From Pseudomonadota bacterium (GTDB lineage Bacteria > Pseudomonadota > Gammaproteobacteria > Steroidobacterales > Steroidobacteraceae), in NCBI GenBank assembly GCA_018241445.1, contig JAFEDT010000017.1:62001-126000 (forward strand): 64,000 bases of DNA, in the 5' to 3' direction. Both the position numbers and the translations under genes were made by a program. Below, piece after piece: positions 1 through 6,696 of this stretch; positions within the stretch are counted from its first letter, which is position 1; each line of letters starts with the position of its first letter. Below the pieces are notes generated by a model. It did not search any database and was not told where the DNA came from. It was given only the letters and a program-made list of their open reading frames with translations.

Positions 1-3000
1 CCCGGGAGCGGGTCAGCAGTCCGCCGAGCAGCTGCGAGCGATCCAGCAGCCGGTGTGCGATCAGGTGTGTCACGCCGTCCTGCTGCTGCATTTCACCGTG
101 TACTTCCATCAGGCGCGCTTCCAGCAGCGCGCGCCGCTGGGCGTCACCGACCCGCTGCCACACGATGACGTTGACCTGGCCGCTCTCGTCCTCCAGGGTG
201 AGGAAGGTGACGCCACTGGCGGTCTGCGGGCGCTGGCGCATGAGCACCAGCCCGGCGGTGCGTACCTGTGCACCGTGACCCGCCTGCAGCAGCTGCGCGG
301 CACTCATGAGCCGGCTGGCCCCCAAGCGCCCGCGCAGCAGCGCCAGCGGGTGACGCCCGAGGGTGAGCCCGATCGAGGCATAATCAGCCACGACGCCCTC
401 ACCCTCCCGCGGTGCGGGGATAAGCGGCCGTCCCTCGATCACCTCGTTCCCCGCTTGAGCTGGTAGCAGCGGCAACGCAGTTTCGGTGCCGGCCACCTCC
501 CAGAAAGCCAGGTGCCGGTTGCCGCACAGTGTGGCGAAGGCGCCCGCCGCCGCGAGCGCTTCCAGGTCGGTGCGGGTGAGGCCCGCGCGGGCCGCCAGGT
601 CAGCGACGCTGGCGAAGGGCCGCGCGGCACGTGCGGCCACGAGACGGGTCACCGACGCCTGCGGCAGGGACTTCACCAGGCACAGCCCCAGGCGCAGCAC
701 CGGCTCACCGTCGGCGCCATGTTCGAGCGCGCAATCCCAGTCGCTGACACAGGCGTCGACGGGGCGCACCTCCACGCCGTGGGCGCGCGCATCGCGCACC
801 AGCTGTGCCGGCGCATAGAAACCCATCGGCTGGCTGTTGAGCAGCGCGCAGGCAAAGGCCGCCGGCTCGTGGTGCTTCAGCCAGGCGGAGTCGTACACCA
901 GCAGCGCGAAGCTCATGGCGTGGGACTGGGGAAAGCCGTATTCCCCGAAGCCCGTCATCTGCTGGTAGATACGCTCGGCGAACTCCTGCGGATAGTTGCG
1001 CGCGCGCATGCCTGACAGCAGGCGCTCGCGAAAACCTTCCAGCCCGCCGGTGCGCTTCCAGGCCCCCATCGCCCGCCGCAACGCGTCCGCCTCCCCGGGG
1101 GTGAAACCGGCGGCGACGACAGCGATCTGCATCACCTGCTCCTGGAAGATCGGCACGCCCAGGGTCGGCTGCAGCACAGCGCGTATCTCCTCGCGGGGAT
1201 AGTCCACCTGCTCTGCACCGCTGCGGCGGCGCAGATAGGGATGCACCATGCCGCCCTGGATCGGACCGGGGCGCACGATCGCCACCTCGATCACCAGGTC
1301 AAAATAACACCGCGGCTGCAGGCGCGGCAGCATCGCCATCTGTGCCCGGGATTCGATCTGGAACACCCCGACGGTATCGGCGCGCGAGATCATCCGGTAG
1401 ACCTCGGCATCCTCGGCCGGCAGCATGCCGAGCGTGTGGTGTATGCCGCGGTAGGCGTGCACCAGGTCGAAGGCGCGCCGCAGTGCCGTCAGCATGCCCA
1501 GCGCCAGCAGGTCCACCTTCAGCAGGCCGAGTTCGTTGAGGTCGTCCTTGTCCCACTGCACCACGGTGCGCTCGGGCATCGCGGCGTTCTCGATGGGCAC
1601 CAGTTCCGCGAGCAGCCCGGCCGCGATGACAAAACCGCCGACATGCTGCGACAGGTGCCGCGGAAAGCCCGGAGGAGCCACCAGCACGGCGACCAGGGGC
1701 AGCAGGTGCTGCAGGGCCGGCGAGCGCAGGTCGAAGCCCGCCTGTGCCAGGCGCTCCCCCAGCATGGCGCTGCCGTCCCACCACTGCATCGCCTTCGCCA
1801 GCCGCAGACCCTCCCGGGCCTCCAGGCCGAATGCCCTGGCCAGGTCGCGCAGCGCGCTGCGCGGGCGGTAAGCGATCACCGTTGCGGCCAGCGCGGCACG
1901 CTCGCGGCCATACTTGCCATAGACGTACTGCAGCACCTCCTCGCGCCGCTCGTGCTCGAAGTCGACGTCGATGTCGGGGGGCTCACGGCGCTCGCGCGAA
2001 ATGAAGCGCTCGAACAGCATGGTGGCGCCGCGCTGCGGGTCCACGGCCGTGATCCCCAAGTAATAGCAGACACGCGAGTTGGCGGCCGAGCCACGGCCCT
2101 GGCACAGGATGCCGCGGCCGCGGGCGAAGGCGACGATGTCGTGCACGGTGAGAAAGTACGGCTCGTAGCCGAGCTCGGCGATCAGCGCCAGCTCGTGCTC
2201 GATGCCGTCGTGCTCCGCCTGCGGCAGTCCGTGGGGCCAGCGCCGTTGCGCTCCTTCCAGGGTAAGCCGGCGCAGGTGGCTGGCGGGGGTCTGCCCCGGC
2301 GGCACCAGTTCCCGCGGGTACTCGTAGCGCAGCTCATCGAGTGAGAACCGGCATTGCCGTGCCAGCCCGACCGTCGCCGCCAGCAGCGGCGGCGGGTACA
2401 GCCGCGCCAGCCGCTCCCGCTCGCGCAGATAGCGCTCGCCGTTGGCATGCAGCCGCCGGCCCGCCTGTGCGATCGGCACACCCAGCCGGATGGCGGTCAG
2501 GGCATCCTGCAACTGCCGCCGTGCCCGTACGTGCATGAGGGCACCGCCGCTGGCCACCAGCGGCACCGTGAACCGCTCGCCCAGCCGCTGCAGTGCCGCA
2601 AGACGGGCGCGATCGCCGCCATCGCGCAGCAGCTCCACCGCCACATGCAGCCGGCCGCCGAAATTCTCCGCCAGCCATTGCAGTTCCTGGGCCTGCGGCT
2701 GCGGGCCGGGAAGCCACAGCAGCAGGCAGCGATCGAACTGCGCAGCCGCGAGATCAGTACGCGTGAGCCGGTAGTGACCCTTGCCGGCAGCGCGCCGGCC
2801 GAGCGTGATGAAGCGGCACAGGCCGCCGTAACCACTGCGGTCGCGCGCCAGCGCGGTGAACTTCAGCCCGCACTCGAGCGTGAACTCCGCACCCACTATC
2901 AGTCGCACCCGCCGCCCGCGCGCGGCCGCGTGCGCGCGCACCACGCCCGCCACGGAGCACTCGTCGGTGATGGCGAGCGCCTCGTAGCCGAGTGCCTCCG

Positions 3001-3112
3001 CCTGCTCCACCAGCTCCTGGGGATGCGAGGCGCCGCGCAGGAAGGTGAAGTTGGAAACACAGTGCAGCTCCGCGTAGGCCGGCGGCGCGCCACCGCAGGT
3101 GGCGGCATTCAT
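1..3112 (-). CDS. dnaE2: Error-prone DNA polymerase ImuC/DnaE2 (3' end beyond window)
   Basis: Catalytic subunit of the SOS mutasome, a C-family polymerase alpha paralogue that extends across damaged template with ImuA and ImuB. The protein opens with a PHP domain (AELHCVSNFTFLRGASHPQE near residues 13-32). It carries the polymerase metal-binding motif PDIDVDF near residue 380. Near the window edge it reaches the C-terminal OB-fold (VRTAGLVLMRQRPQTASGV). The frame is open to base 1, so only the last few dozen residues are missing. The ATG at 3112 overlaps the imuB stop by 4 bp (ATGA), which indicates translational coupling; the nearby ATG at 3108 is out of frame. The gene is last in lexA-imuA-imuB-dnaE2 and is presumably controlled by the LexA box upstream of lexA. 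Confidence 0.96.
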   Translation of the reverse strand, partial: MNAATCGGAPPAYAELHCVSNFTFLRGASHPQELVEQAEALGYEALAITDECSVAGVVRAHAAARGRRVRLIVGAEFTLECGLKFTALARDRSGYGGLCRFITLGRRAAGKGHYRLTRTDLAAAQFDRCLLLWLPGPQPQAQELQWLAENFGGRLHVAVELLRDGGDRARLAALQRLGERFTVPLVASGGALMHVRARRQLQDALTAIRLGVPIAQAGRRLHANGERYLRERERLARLYPPPLLAATVGLARQCRFSLDELRYEYPRELVPPGQTPASHLRRLTLEGAQRRWPHGLPQAEHDGIEHELALIAELGYEPYFLTVHDIVAFARGRGILCQGRGSAANSRVCYYLGITAVDPQRGATMLFERFISRERREPPDIDVDFEHERREEVLQYVYGKYGRERAALAATVIAYRPRSALRDLARAFGLEAREGLRLAKAMQWWDGSAMLGERLAQAGFDLRSPALQHLLPLVAVLVAPPGFPRHLSQHVGGFVIAAGLLAELVPIENAAMPERTVVQWDKDDLNELGLLKVDLLALGMLTALRRAFDLVHAYRGIHHTLGMLPAEDAEVYRMISRADTVGVFQIESRAQMAMLPRLQPRCYFDLVIEVAIVRPGPIQGGMVHPYLRRRSGAEQVDYPREEIRAVLQPTLGVPIFQEQVMQIAVVAAGFTPGEADALRRAMGAWKRTGGLEGFRERLLSGMRARNYPQEFAERIYQQMTGFGEYGFPQSHAMSFALLVYDSAWLKHHEPAAFACALLNSQPMGFYAPAQLVRDARAHGVEVRPVDACVSDWDCALEHGADGEPVLRLGLCLVKSLPQASVTRLVAARAARPFASVADLAARAGLTRTDLEALAAAGAFATLCGNRHLAFWEVAGTETALPLLPAQAGNEVIEGRPLIPAPREGEGVVADYASIGLTLGRHPLALLRGRLGASRLMSAAQLLQAGHGAQVRTAGLVLMRQRPQTASGVTFLTLEDESGQVNVIVWQRVGDAQRRALLEARLMEVHGEMQQQDGVTHLIAHRLLDRSQLLGGLLTRSR

Positions 3113-4566
3113 CCGAAGACCCCGTGCAGGAACCAGCCGTGCGGCGCGGCGCGTTCGCGGAATACCCACAGCCGCACCCCGCGCGCATCCATGGCGCTGT
3201 AATAGTCGCGTGCAATCCCCCGGCCGTCCCACCAGCCGGTCTCGATGCGCTCAGGCTCGCCCGCCAGGTGCAGGGGTCTTCCCCGCCGGCACGGCAGGCC
3301 GGCCCGCTCCGCCAGGGGCCGCGGCTCACGCAGCAGCCACAGCGGGCGTGCCGCCGCCACCGGCACGCGCGTGATCCGCTCGGGCTGCGGCGGCAGTCCA
3401 TGCGGCGCCCGCGCAATGCCCGCACCCTGTGGCAATAACGGCTCACTCACCTGCCAGGCCGCCTCGGGACGGTGATCGTCCCTCAGGACCAGTCCGTATA
3501 CCGCGCCGGCACCGAAGCGGGCGCGCAGGTGTTCCACCAGGTCAGCGCACGGCGCAGTGCCACCGCCACCCTGCTCTCCCGGCTGCCACAGCGGATGCGA
3601 ATCGCGCTGATGCGGCACCGTCGCCGTACGCAGCTCGCAGGCGCGCACCGGCTCCACCAGGGGCTGTTGCTGCAGGCGCTCGCGCAGCAGCGCGCTCAGG
3701 CGTTGCACGTCGGCCATGGGAGCCGCGAAGCGCATCGCGCAGCAGGTCGCGGCGCCGTGCCGGTGCAGCAGCCGGCATTCCAGCCGCATCACCCCGCACT
3801 GGTGTGCCTCGAGGAAGGCGGCGAGTTGCTCCCATAGCGGCGTCAGGGCACGAAGCAGGCGCTCGTGATCGGTGATCTCATGCTCCAGCTCGCAGCGGCG
3901 CCGGAACCGCTCACGCAATCGCACTGCCTGACGCGGATCAGGCGTGCGGCCCGTGAGCCGATCGAGCAGGGCCAGTTGCGCAGCCCCAAAGCGGCGCGCA
4001 AAGCCGGCACGCGGCAGGCGCAATGCCGCACCCACGGTGCGCACCCCCATGCGCGCCAGGCGTGCCTGGGTCTCCTCGGGCCAGCGCAGAACGGCAAGCG
4101 GCAGCGGCGCGAGCTGGCCGATGAGCCGCGCCGGATCCACGATCTGCAGTGGCCGCCCTGCCCGGGCGACCGCCAGCGCCGCCAGCGCGGTCGGTGCAAA
4201 GGCCAGCAGCGGCCGTGGATGCAGGGGCAGGCAGGCCTGGGTCAGCAGGCGGCGCAATCCCGCAAGCCCATCGAACAGGTGCAGGCTGCCGCGCACCTCC
4301 AGCACCAGGCCATCCGGGGGCACCAGGCTCACCTGGGGCGAGAAGCGCTGCGCCAGCACCCCCAGGGACTGCAGCACCTGCGGTGATATCCCCGCCAGAT
4401 GCACGCCAGCCCACAGCTGCCGTGCGACGGCCACGGACTGCGTAGCAGCCGGGCCTGCCGATGCCGGCGAAGGTGCGGCGGGCACCGGCACAGCAGCGCC
4501 GCGTGCCGGCACCGCGCCAGACTTCACGCCAGGCTCCGCGATGACAGTCAGCTCGAGCTGGCGCAT
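3109..4566 (-). CDS. imuB: Y-family polymerase-like mutasome protein ImuB, short palm
   Basis: Catalytically inactive Y-family relative that bridges ImuA, DnaE2 and the beta clamp in the mutasome (family knowledge). The product is 485 aa. The family-typical stretch SPQVSLVPPDGLVLEVRGSLHLFDG is at residues 76-100 and the diagnostic C-terminus RDYYSAMDARGVRLWVFRER is near the end. The ATG at 4566 overlaps the imuA end by 19 bp. Residues 1-50 are low-complexity Ala/Pro/Val. The first palm strand LWAGVHLAGI (51-60) is followed almost at once by LQSLGVLAQRFSPQVSL (65-81), whereas relatives have roughly 50-60 residues between these elements. An internal deletion therefore seems likely, though a lineage-specific form is possible. 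Confidence 0.9.
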   Translation of the reverse strand: MRQLELTVIAEPGVKSGAVPARGAAVPVPAAPSPASAGPAATQSVAVARQLWAGVHLAGISPQVLQSLGVLAQRFSPQVSLVPPDGLVLEVRGSLHLFDGLAGLRRLLTQACLPLHPRPLLAFAPTALAALAVARAGRPLQIVDPARLIGQLAPLPLAVLRWPEETQARLARMGVRTVGAALRLPRAGFARRFGAAQLALLDRLTGRTPDPRQAVRLRERFRRRCELEHEITDHERLLRALTPLWEQLAAFLEAHQCGVMRLECRLLHRHGAATCCAMRFAAPMADVQRLSALLRERLQQQPLVEPVRACELRTATVPHQRDSHPLWQPGEQGGGGTAPCADLVEHLRARFGAGAVYGLVLRDDHRPEAAWQVSEPLLPQGAGIARAPHGLPPQPERITRVPVAAARPLWLLREPRPLAERAGLPCRRGRPLHLAGEPERIETGWWDGRGIARDYYSAMDARGVRLWVFRERAAPHGWFLHGVFG

Positions 4567-5174
4567 GTATCCAGCCCGATCTCGATCGAGCCGCGGTGGG
4601 CAGTGCGGCCTTTGAGGAGGGTAATCCTGGCTCCCGCCCTGCAGGGCGTGAGGCTGAGCCGCAGGATCGCGGCACTGGCTTCCTGCGCTGCATGCAGCGG
4701 ACGGAACAGGATACCCAGGGTCCTGCCGCGCTCTGCGGCAAGCTGCAGCCGCCGGATCTCGCGTGATCGCGGCTGACGCACCCAGGCCAGCACGGCATCG
4801 CAGGCCCCCGAGCGCAGCGCCTGCTCGAAAGCCCACCGTGCCGGGTCGGCATCCACGACCGCGATCCGTGCAAGTTGCACACCGCCGGCCGCGAGCGCCG
4901 GCGCGAAAGGCACCAGGGGCGGCGTCACCCAGACACACCAGCGTGCCGCCGCCGCACGGCTGAGCCGTGCCAGCACCGGCAGCATCAGGCGCAGTTCACC
5001 GCTGCCGAAACGCGGAACGAGGATCTCTACCAGACCGCTTCGTGGCCAGCCCCTGCCGGGAAGCTGCTCGTCCAGGGCCGCAAAACCACTCGGCCATGTG
5101 CTGCGCGCTGCCGCGCTGCGGCCGCGCCAGATCGCCGGATGCTCGAGCAGCCGCGCCAGTCTCGTATCCCGCAT
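4548..5174 (-). CDS. imuA: Translesion synthesis accessory protein ImuA
   Basis: RecA/SulA-like accessory protein of the mutasome, 208 aa, thought to contact ImuB and RecA. The N-terminus (LLEHPAIWRG, then PSGFAALDEQLPGRGWPRSG around residues 28-47) is characteristic of ImuA. A conventional Walker A motif is not evident in the corresponding loop, as in much of this family. The central segment (WVRQPRSREIRRLQLAAERG, about residues 131-150) is also family-typical. The start at ATG 5174 leaves 55 bp to the lexA stop. The gene overlaps imuB by 19 bp, consistent with one SOS-induced transcript from the lexA promoter. Confidence 0.9.
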   Translation of the reverse strand: MRDTRLARLLEHPAIWRGRSAAARSTWPSGFAALDEQLPGRGWPRSGLVEILVPRFGSGELRLMLPVLARLSRAAAARWCVWVTPPLVPFAPALAAGGVQLARIAVVDADPARWAFEQALRSGACDAVLAWVRQPRSREIRRLQLAAERGRTLGILFRPLHAAQEASAAILRLSLTPCRAGARITLLKGRTAHRGSIEIGLDTCASSS

Positions 5175-5229: not shown

Positions 5230-5847
5230 TCAGGCCGGCCGCACGGCCTGGCGCACGACACCCACCACGATCCCCTCGATCAGCAGGGGCTCCTGCCTCA
5301 GGTCCACCTTGATTGGATCGAAATCGGTGTTCTCGGGCAGCAACCACACGACCGACCCCTCCTGGCGGTAACGCTTCACGGTGACTTCGTTTTCCAGGCG
5401 AGCCACCACGATCTGGCGGCTGCGCACCTCGGAGGTGCGGTGTACGGCGACCAGGTCCCCGTCGAGGATCCCGGCATCCCGCATGCTCATGCCGATGACC
5501 TTCAGCAGGTAATGCGGCCGCGGCTGGAACAGGCCGGGATCGATCTGCAGGCGGCCCTCGAAATTCTCCTCGGCGAAAATGGGTTTGCCGGCGGCAACCC
5601 GCCCGATGAGCGGCAGCCCGATCTGCTCGCGGATGGTGTCCCGGAGCTGGATGCCGCGGGAGGTTCCCGGCATCAGGGAGATGACGCCCTTGCGGGCCAG
5701 GGCACGCAGGTGCTCCTCAGCTGCATTGGCGGAACGAAACCCCAGTTCCTGGGCAATCTCCGCCCGGGTGGGCGGCATGCCCGTATCGGATATGAACCGC
5801 TGGATGAGGCGCAGGATCTGGGTCTGACGGGGAGTAAGGTCTGACAT
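5230..5847 (-). CDS. lexA: SOS repressor LexA
   Basis: Transcriptional repressor of the SOS regulon and RecA-stimulated autoprotease, 205 aa. An N-terminal winged helix-turn-helix ([39 protein letters not shown]) is followed by the cleavage site A86-G87 in GRVAAGKP. The catalytic dyad is Ser121 (GMSM) and Lys158 (EVTVKRY). Length and motif spacing match canonical LexA. The ATG at 5847 lies 11 bp from a consensus LexA box, so the gene should be autoregulated and should control the downstream imuA-imuB-dnaE2 genes as well. Confidence 0.98.
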
Positions 5848-5858
5848 CGTGCACCAGC

Positions 5859-5874
5859 CTGTTTATACGTACAG
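5859..5874 (-). promoter_or_regulatory. LexA (SOS) box
   Basis: The sequence CTGTTTATACGTACAG matches the gammaproteobacterial consensus CTG-N10-CAG with an A/T-rich, near-palindromic core. It lies just upstream of the lexA start codon. It would cover the predicted transcription start of the lexA-imuA-imuB-dnaE2 operon. Confidence 0.93.
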
Positions 5875-5882
5875 TAACTGTG

Positions 5883-5910
5883 ATTATATCCAGATCGGGC
5901 TGCCCGGCAA
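5883..5910 (-). promoter_or_regulatory. Sigma-70 promoter of the lexA-imuABC operon
   Basis: On the minus strand a TTGCCG -35 (5905-5910) is followed after 16 bp by a perfect TATAAT -10 (5883-5888). The predicted start, near 5876, falls at the edge of the LexA box, so bound LexA should block initiation. Confidence 0.75.
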
Positions 5911-6378
5911 GCCCGCCGGAACCACCCCACCGAAGACCCCGGACGACCGCCCTGGCCCTCCTGCCCGTCAGCCCCAGATCCTCCGGCTGCCAGTCCCAGG
6001 GAACCCCGGCCGGCCCACCCTGCCGGCCGGCCCTGCCGGCGGGCCCGCCCTGCCGGCCAGCCCTCTTCAGCCAGCCACTCCAATGACAAAATCTTAACGA
6101 CCGACTCAACCTCCATCTGTGCCATTGCCATGATGTCAGTTGCATCAAGCACTGGAATTTCCCGGATGAAACACCCGTGCATTACTCCGTCACGCCTGAC
6201 CGGACCGAGTCCGTCACCAGCGCAACTGTCGCGTCCAAAAGACAACTTACATGTTTGGAGTTGCATTCCAAGCGTAAATTTGGTGCAGTTGCGCGCGGCG
6301 GACGCCGGCGGTGCTTGCCCCCGGAGTCACATCGTTTAAGGACATCCCGGAATCAATAACCCAGAAGGGGACGGATAT
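5911..6378. other. Intergenic region between lexA and the Lpp-like gene
   Basis: This 468-bp divergent intergenic stretch has no convincing gene. The lexA-proximal half is extremely GC-rich and holds short direct repeats at 6018-6066. The half nearer the lipoprotein is less GC-rich and presumably carries its promoter. No well-spaced -35/-10 pair could be chosen. A ribosome binding site (AAGGGG) sits about 9 bp before the ATG at 6379. Confidence 0.5.
6018..6066. repeat. GC-rich tandem repeats of CCCTGCCGGC type
   Basis: The 9-mer CCCTGCCGG occurs three times (6018, 6031 and 6048), with related CCGGCC/GGGCCC spacers and a further CCCTC remnant. The spacing of 13 and 17 bp is irregular. The block could form strong secondary structure upstream of the lexA promoter; no function can be assigned. 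Confidence 0.6.
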
Positions 6379-6696
6379 ATGAAGTGCGCGAGTGTTGTTA
6401 AGGCGGCGGCTGCCGTTGTTGCGATTATCGGACTTGCCGGTTGCCAGGACCTGAAGCCCCTGCAGGCTGACGTTGCCAGCCTCAAGGACCAGGTGGCCAA
6501 GCTGACGAGCGACACCGCGAGTGCCAAGAGCGCTGCGGATGCTGCCAACAGCGCCGCCTCCTCAGCCAGCCAGACTGCCAGCGGTGCGCAGAGCACGGCC
6601 AACCAGGCCCTTGCTGCTGCTCACGCCAGCCAGTCGTGCTGCGATGCGACCAACGAGAAGATCGACCGCATGTTCAAGCGCTCGGTCTCCAAGTAA
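6379..6696 (+). CDS. Lpp-like alanine-zipper outer-membrane lipoprotein
   Basis: Small lipoprotein of 105 aa. The signal peptide ends in the lipobox LAGC with acylated Cys at about residue 23. A heptad-like helix follows (LQADVASLKDQVAKLTSD, then an Ala/Ser-rich stretch to about residue 85), matching the alanine-zipper trimeric coiled coil of Lpp/OprI proteins. The C-terminus is KRSVSK; a terminal lysine is where Lpp is joined to peptidoglycan, so a structural envelope role is plausible. An unusual Cys-Cys pair (SQSCCDA) sits near residues 87-88. The gene is monocistronic and is followed by a strong terminator. Confidence 0.85.
   Translation: MKCASVVKAAAAVVAIIGLAGCQDLKPLQADVASLKDQVAKLTSDTASAKSAADAANSAASSASQTASGAQSTANQALAAAHASQSCCDATNEKIDRMFKRSVSK

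Follow-up and report, generated by a model that had tools for sequence, protein, structure and literature searches.

In active Y-family DNA polymerases, the fingers domain contacts the templating base and the incoming dNTP. According to the available text of the respective reports, this domain comprises residues 11-73 of E. coli Pol IV, the palm of which is formed by residues 1-10 and 74-165 (PMC10359629), and residues 11-77 of Dpo4 (PMC7641590). ImuB is described in the available portions of three papers as a scaffold, which binds the clamp and holds ImuA through its RecA-NT motif and DnaE2 through its thumb and ImuB-C domain (PMC10421592, PMC11791113, PMC12926913). The accessible part of a 2026 survey also reports that many ImuBs carry deletions of structural elements (PMC12926913).

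We analyzed a 64,000-nucleotide stretch of DNA from a member of the Steroidobacteraceae (the window), which carries the cassette lexA-imuA-imuB-dnaE2 on its minus strand. The lexA gene (5230..5847; 205 aa, from the list of open reading frames) lies upstream of imuA (4548..5174; 208 aa), the product of which scored 194.7 bits against the NCBIfam model NF033429 (ImuA_translesion; cut-off 150) and the frame of which shares 19 nt with the start of imuB. The translation of imuB (3109..4566), a Y-family homologue without fingers flanked by imuA and dnaE2, is a protein of 485 aa (P0001). Its stop codon overlaps the start of dnaE2 (ATGA; 1..3112, identified through L117), which runs off the window, and the whole dnaE2 reading frame is unbroken over 1040 aa. 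Similar arrangements were found among 31 loci with short ImuBs, in all of which imuA was upstream; dnaE2 was downstream in 30, the remaining locus being cut by a contig end, and a lexA homologue preceded imuA in 30. Upstream of lexA, the site TTACTGTACGTATAAACAGG (5857..5876, minus strand) has the form CTG-N10-CAG and resembles, by eye, the E. coli SOS-box consensus. From this box-like site, we infer that LexA may control the imuA/imuB/dnaE2 cassette. The cassette is thus intact, as the preliminary description of this DNA had proposed. The region at 5900-6080, upstream of the lexA promoter region, is G+C-rich and repetitive in appearance, and a small, Ala/Ser-rich lipoprotein-like ORF (MKCASVVKAAAAVVAIIGLAGCQ...; 6379-6696, plus strand) has the lexA cassette on one side and a methyltransferase-like ORF on the other.

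Window ImuB begins with a Pro/Ala-rich N-terminal extension (residues 1-50; 4417..4566), predicted to be disordered (mean pLDDT 29-53 by block), which is followed by LWAGVHLAGIS and then directly by PQVLQSLGVLAQRFSPQVSL. The sequence over the junction reads ...VARQ-LWAGVHLAGIS-PQVLQSLGVLAQRFSPQVSLVPPDGLVLEV..., with the palm strand LWAGVHLAG joined directly to the palm helix PQVLQSLGVLAQRF. In alignment A1, palm strand beta-1 comprises residues 51-58 (LWAGVHLA; 4393..4416; strand 52-56 in the model, block pLDDT 96), and the alignment, the segment lengths and the domain table place GIS (residues 59-61; 4384..4392) where fingered ImuBs have approximately 60-66 fingers residues. P0001 has 36 residues between the LW strand and the LEV anchor, as compared to 94-133 in 49 fingered ImuBs. 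This spacing was bimodal over 96 ImuBs: 47 rows had 34-49 residues and the other 49 had 94-133, with no intermediates; two rows printed as 91 and 82 (L025 and L063), to which the alignment had added residues of the N-terminus, gave 44 and 40 when counted from LW. The net deficit of window ImuB relative to other ImuBs is about 60 residues.

The ImuB profile aligned with the structures of E. coli Pol IV and of Dpo4 across the segment that is absent from window ImuB. Window ImuB itself matched Pol IV only from approximately residue 91 on, and this match is weak alone (E 0.017). The lost residues correspond to about residues 12-76 of Pol IV. Because of this correspondence, and because both palm pieces remain, the lost segment is the fingers and not the palm. 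These results show that window ImuB lacks the entire Y-family fingers domain and retains both pieces of the palm. A gap of some 50-60 residues had previously been noted and assigned to the palm; its size agrees with our measurements, while its assignment does not.

The remaining domains are all encoded on the minus strand. The rest of the palm (residues 62-137; 4156..4383) was delimited by alignment, model and domain table, and the thumb (residues 138-207; 3946..4155) and little finger (residues 208-313; 3628..3945) by model, structure alignment and domain table. These are followed by HPLWQ (residues 324-328; 3583..3597), a putative clamp-binding motif recognized from the sequence, the LW of which is conserved in the genus; by a RecA-NT-like motif (residues 341-368; 3463..3546; domain table, with helix 338-351 in the model); and by the ImuB-C domain (residues 407-485; 3112..3348), which is conserved in alignment A1 and consists mostly of strands in the model. 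HPLWQ sits just before RecA-NT, at the place of the candidate's mycobacterial counterpart, the clamp-binding motif QLPLW, and the RecA-NT-like motif follows the clamp motif as in mycobacterial ImuB, in the available text of PMC11791113. Both the RecA-NT-like motif and ImuB-C aligned with those of homologues, and the C-terminal part of P0001 matched the ImuB profile with E 6.5e-165. The palm, thumb, little finger, RecA-NT and ImuB-C are of the same lengths as in fingered homologues, which bears out the earlier statement that the remainder of the protein, including its C-terminus, is intact. The catalytic acids have been lost: the window strand LWAGVHLA, placed by structure and by eye at the strand of Pol IV D8, contains no acid, and Pol IV SLDEA aligns with window PPDG, in which the first D is kept and E is replaced by G. 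A Pfam search of P0001 returned no domain match at all, and NCBIfam gave only weak Pol IV matches, far under cut-off.

An AlphaFold model of window ImuB was obtained from alignment A2 (66 rows; L085, L100, L101 and L102 left out); alignment A3 is a thinned list of 57 rows. In this model (mean pLDDT 81), strand 52-56 leads into helix 62-72, with block pLDDT values of 96 and 93. In the model of the fingered ImuB L055 (mean 82.4), the interval between the strand and the palm helix contains helix 65-68, strands 78-84 and 87-93, helices 95-99 and 108-114 and strand 119-122. VIA-align matched 263 residues of the window model to each of 6l97_A, 1n48_A and 4g3i_A, as compared to 321, 325 and 321 residues of the L055 model, a difference that, in these predicted structures, is one fingers domain. 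The palm/thumb/little-finger fold gave Z values of 12.6-14.9 against Pol IV, Dpo4, Rev1 and Pol iota chains, covering in the main residues 48-319 of the window model. The rmsd values of these alignments were large (7-13 A) because the little finger is freely placed. These models show that the predicted fold closes without the fingers. In the available text of a simulation study, residues 10 and 77 of Dpo4 were joined by five glycines (PMC7641590), which suggests that the fingers domain starts and ends at places close to each other.

The fingers segment was absent from all 20 same-genus homologues with a readable N-terminal half (L002-L016 and L018-L022). From the first set of sequences, the fragments L022, L053, L058, L077, L096 and L105 were removed, together with six further duplicates. 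Of 147 genomes drawn evenly from the source order, 114 had an ImuB-profile match, and 108 ImuBs were classified: 36 lacked the fingers and 72 had them (30 of 102 lacked them when the divergent f12 group was set aside). The other six were unclassified or off the tree, namely G031, G043 and G060 (contig ends), G114 (ImuB pieces on two contigs, the N-terminal piece being fingered), G026 (a gene in two frames, with fingers present) and G078 (a DinB-like match). Six proteins of family f12 (L184-L186 and L217-L219) are very divergent fingerless ImuB-like proteins that start with MRIACVWLHR; the f12 genomes G035, G050, G062 and G074 had no Pfam IMS match anywhere, and DinB is possibly absent from them.

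We built the order gene tree from the columns after the fingers only; this and the other trees are quick searches, in which many forks have supports below 95. The tree has 9 changes between the two states, a parsimony minimum that includes the very divergent f12 and becomes 8 without f12 in the thinned set, and at least 4 changes are forced by starred branches. A single clade of all short forms was rejected (p-AU 1.3e-10; 81 rows, up to 3 per genus and state, without f12, 8 changes). These results show that several separate lineages within the order lack this domain. The tree itself gives no direction; since the Y family ancestrally had fingers, the changes are most simply losses. The loss of the window lineage is shared by 14 rows of family f1 (support 88), or 13 rows with support 98; in the named set, a clade of 39 rows (support 100) shares it. 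It is an old loss. The supported clade and the gap shared throughout the readable genus agree with the suggestion, made previously, of a lineage-specific minimal ImuB. The gene tree departs from the family labels, with f1 scattered over several places, and this discordance makes transfer between lineages possible. Genus g31 of family f15 contains both states: two short (L179 and L180) and four full (L182, L194, L208 and L212). The short g31 proteins keep LPxGPLE after the strand, a breakpoint that differs slightly from that of the window and points to a separate deletion. With both forms in one genus, g31 offers natural pairs for swaps.

Conservation by domain was compared between ImuB and DinB. 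Among 30 DinB sequences of the source order, mean pairwise identity was 0.69 in the fingers vs 0.61 in the palm, and among 71 fingered ImuBs it was 0.36 in the fingers vs 0.48 in the palm, with values of 0.46, 0.52 and 0.54 for the thumb, RecA-NT and ImuB-C, respectively. Constraint on the fingers thus appears to be relaxed in ImuB, in a relative sense only. The little finger of ImuB (0.34) is as variable as the fingers, so that low conservation alone is no sign of dispensability or of coming loss. In short ImuBs, the other domains have the same lengths and similar identity, and the interfaces are kept and are about equally conserved.

We are confident that window ImuB is genuine and looks functional, that excision of its entire fingers domain has joined beta-1 to the first post-fingers palm helix, and that a scaffold able to dispense with its fingers accounts for this. 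ImuB would be the non-catalytic scaffold of the SOS mutasome, docking on the beta clamp through the putative motif HPLWQ and holding ImuA by RecA-NT and DnaE2 by the thumb and ImuB-C, and DNA synthesis would be done by DnaE2. Loss of ImuB catalysis would have relaxed the constraint on the fingers and led to their repeated loss, since in a catalytically dead scaffold they may be dispensable. One in-frame deletion could take out the fingers and leave the palm folded, because both fingers ends lie at one palm boundary. Evolution keeps strand beta-1, the palm, thumb, little finger, RecA-NT and ImuB-C and dispenses with the fingers, which suggests that the fingers are unneeded for the scaffolding job of ImuB; conservation and gene context point to a reduced mutasome that probably functions. 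A more far-reaching proposal is advanced tentatively and is rather unlikely in full: that fingers loss is a recurrent clean excision concentrated in one order, with at least 8-9 events, one of them inside one genus, and that it marks an altered mutasome architecture, in which ImuB serves purely to connect the clamp, ImuA and DnaE2, perhaps through an additional xLxLF clamp site at its N-terminus, and the former role of the fingers is no longer needed.

A survey of the class gave matches in 72 of 232 genomes. Of these 72, 69 fall outside the order, and two of the 69 (G256 and G257) lacked the fingers; both were read, and the other 67 were called fingered because their profile match began at position 25 or earlier. 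The contrast between 36 of 108 in the order and 2 of 69 elsewhere in the class might reflect an adaptive loss that changed mutasome regulation, for example by clearing space over the DNA for DnaE2. However, the clustering may stem from shared ancestry or sampling, and neutral loss of a relaxed domain suffices, and we regard an adaptive origin as quite unlikely.

The N-terminal extension of 27 of 75 ImuBs of the order contained the motif [LIVMAS]xLF, as compared to 2.4 expected by shuffling (TLDLFAP, SLPLFPNEL and RQLQLF are examples, e.g. in L016, L119, L149 and L168). This motif resembles the clamp-binding QxxLF and would be a second site; at this position window ImuB has the degenerate MRQLELTV, in which F is missing. 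The enrichment of xLxLF, and the presence of extensions of approximately 40-70 residues in the short ImuBs of the genus, could be taken to mean that the function of the fingers passed to the extension, or to another chain. This is very improbable, as the extension occurs in fingered ImuBs of the order too, that of the window is predicted to be disordered and has no likeness to fingers, and the genome has no separate fingers gene: a strand-plus-fingers query from L055, searched against the genome in any frame, had a best E of 0.145. A split gene was rejected, with no separate fingers piece in the genome and the imuA/dnaE2 context intact.

The fingers are a core part of active Y-family polymerases, and their absence could mark a decaying gene, with a fold-breaking deletion in a mutasome under loss, as the preliminary description had envisaged. 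We give this little credence: dN/dS of imuB was 0.21-0.45 (14 pairs), indicating purifying selection, none of the 20 same-genus matches contained an internal stop, the operon with its full-length DnaE2 is intact, the short forms make up the deep 39-row clade described above, and AlphaFold is confident over the junction. An error of sequencing, assembly or annotation, with the fingers in another frame, behind an upstream start or unassembled in this draft genome of 18 contigs, is practically negligible, given the overlap of imuA with the imuB start, the lack of a significant fingers match in the genome, and a gap common to the readable same-genus genomes, other families and many independent genomes, for which sequencing error cannot account; in an independent test, moreover, which we tallied over 59 genomes of the source order, Pfam IMS had a match at the position of ImuB in all 30 genomes whose fingered ImuB was readable and in none of the 12 genomes whose ImuB is short. 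Genome-wide searches with Pfam IMS (PF00817) thus leave fingerless ImuBs undetected, and surveys that use IMS undercount mutasomes.

E. coli Pol IV (DinB) has the same fold of palm, thumb and little finger as window ImuB but is active and has both fingers 11-73 and catalytic acids. A plasmid search for ImuBs returned 667 records, two of which were opened. In one, pTi of Agrobacterium fabrum C58, ImuB (P0003) is flanked, as in the window, by an ImuA-family gene and by a gene for an error-prone polymerase, but has the fingers segment; the other, from Cupriavidus campinensis, is unannotated and was viewed only as an open frame. Another close system is the ImuB1 group of Proteobacteria (e.g. Pseudomonas), in which we place window ImuB on the basis of its taxon and its resemblance rather than through the clustering used by the authors. 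In the available text (Timinskas and Venclovas, PMC6511836; PMC12926913), ImuB1 has the same Y-family core without catalytic residues, and both have RecA-NT, ImuB-C and an operon with imuA and dnaE2; window ImuB differs in its missing fingers and in having no Pfam match. Similar to the reduced ImuBs in the accessible part of PMC12926913, it has lost structural elements and retained the thumb, little finger and ImuB-C. It is a milder case than these, its palm being kept; here, the lost element is named and its recurrence mapped on trees. Our literature search, which covered papers without the supplement of PMC12926913, found none naming fingers loss in ImuB, and a fingerless ImuB may already be drawn in Suppl. 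Fig. S22 of that survey. Compared with these systems, the present analysis adds the exact domain lost, a map of where and how repeatedly this loss occurs in one order, and the failure of Pfam IMS to detect such proteins.
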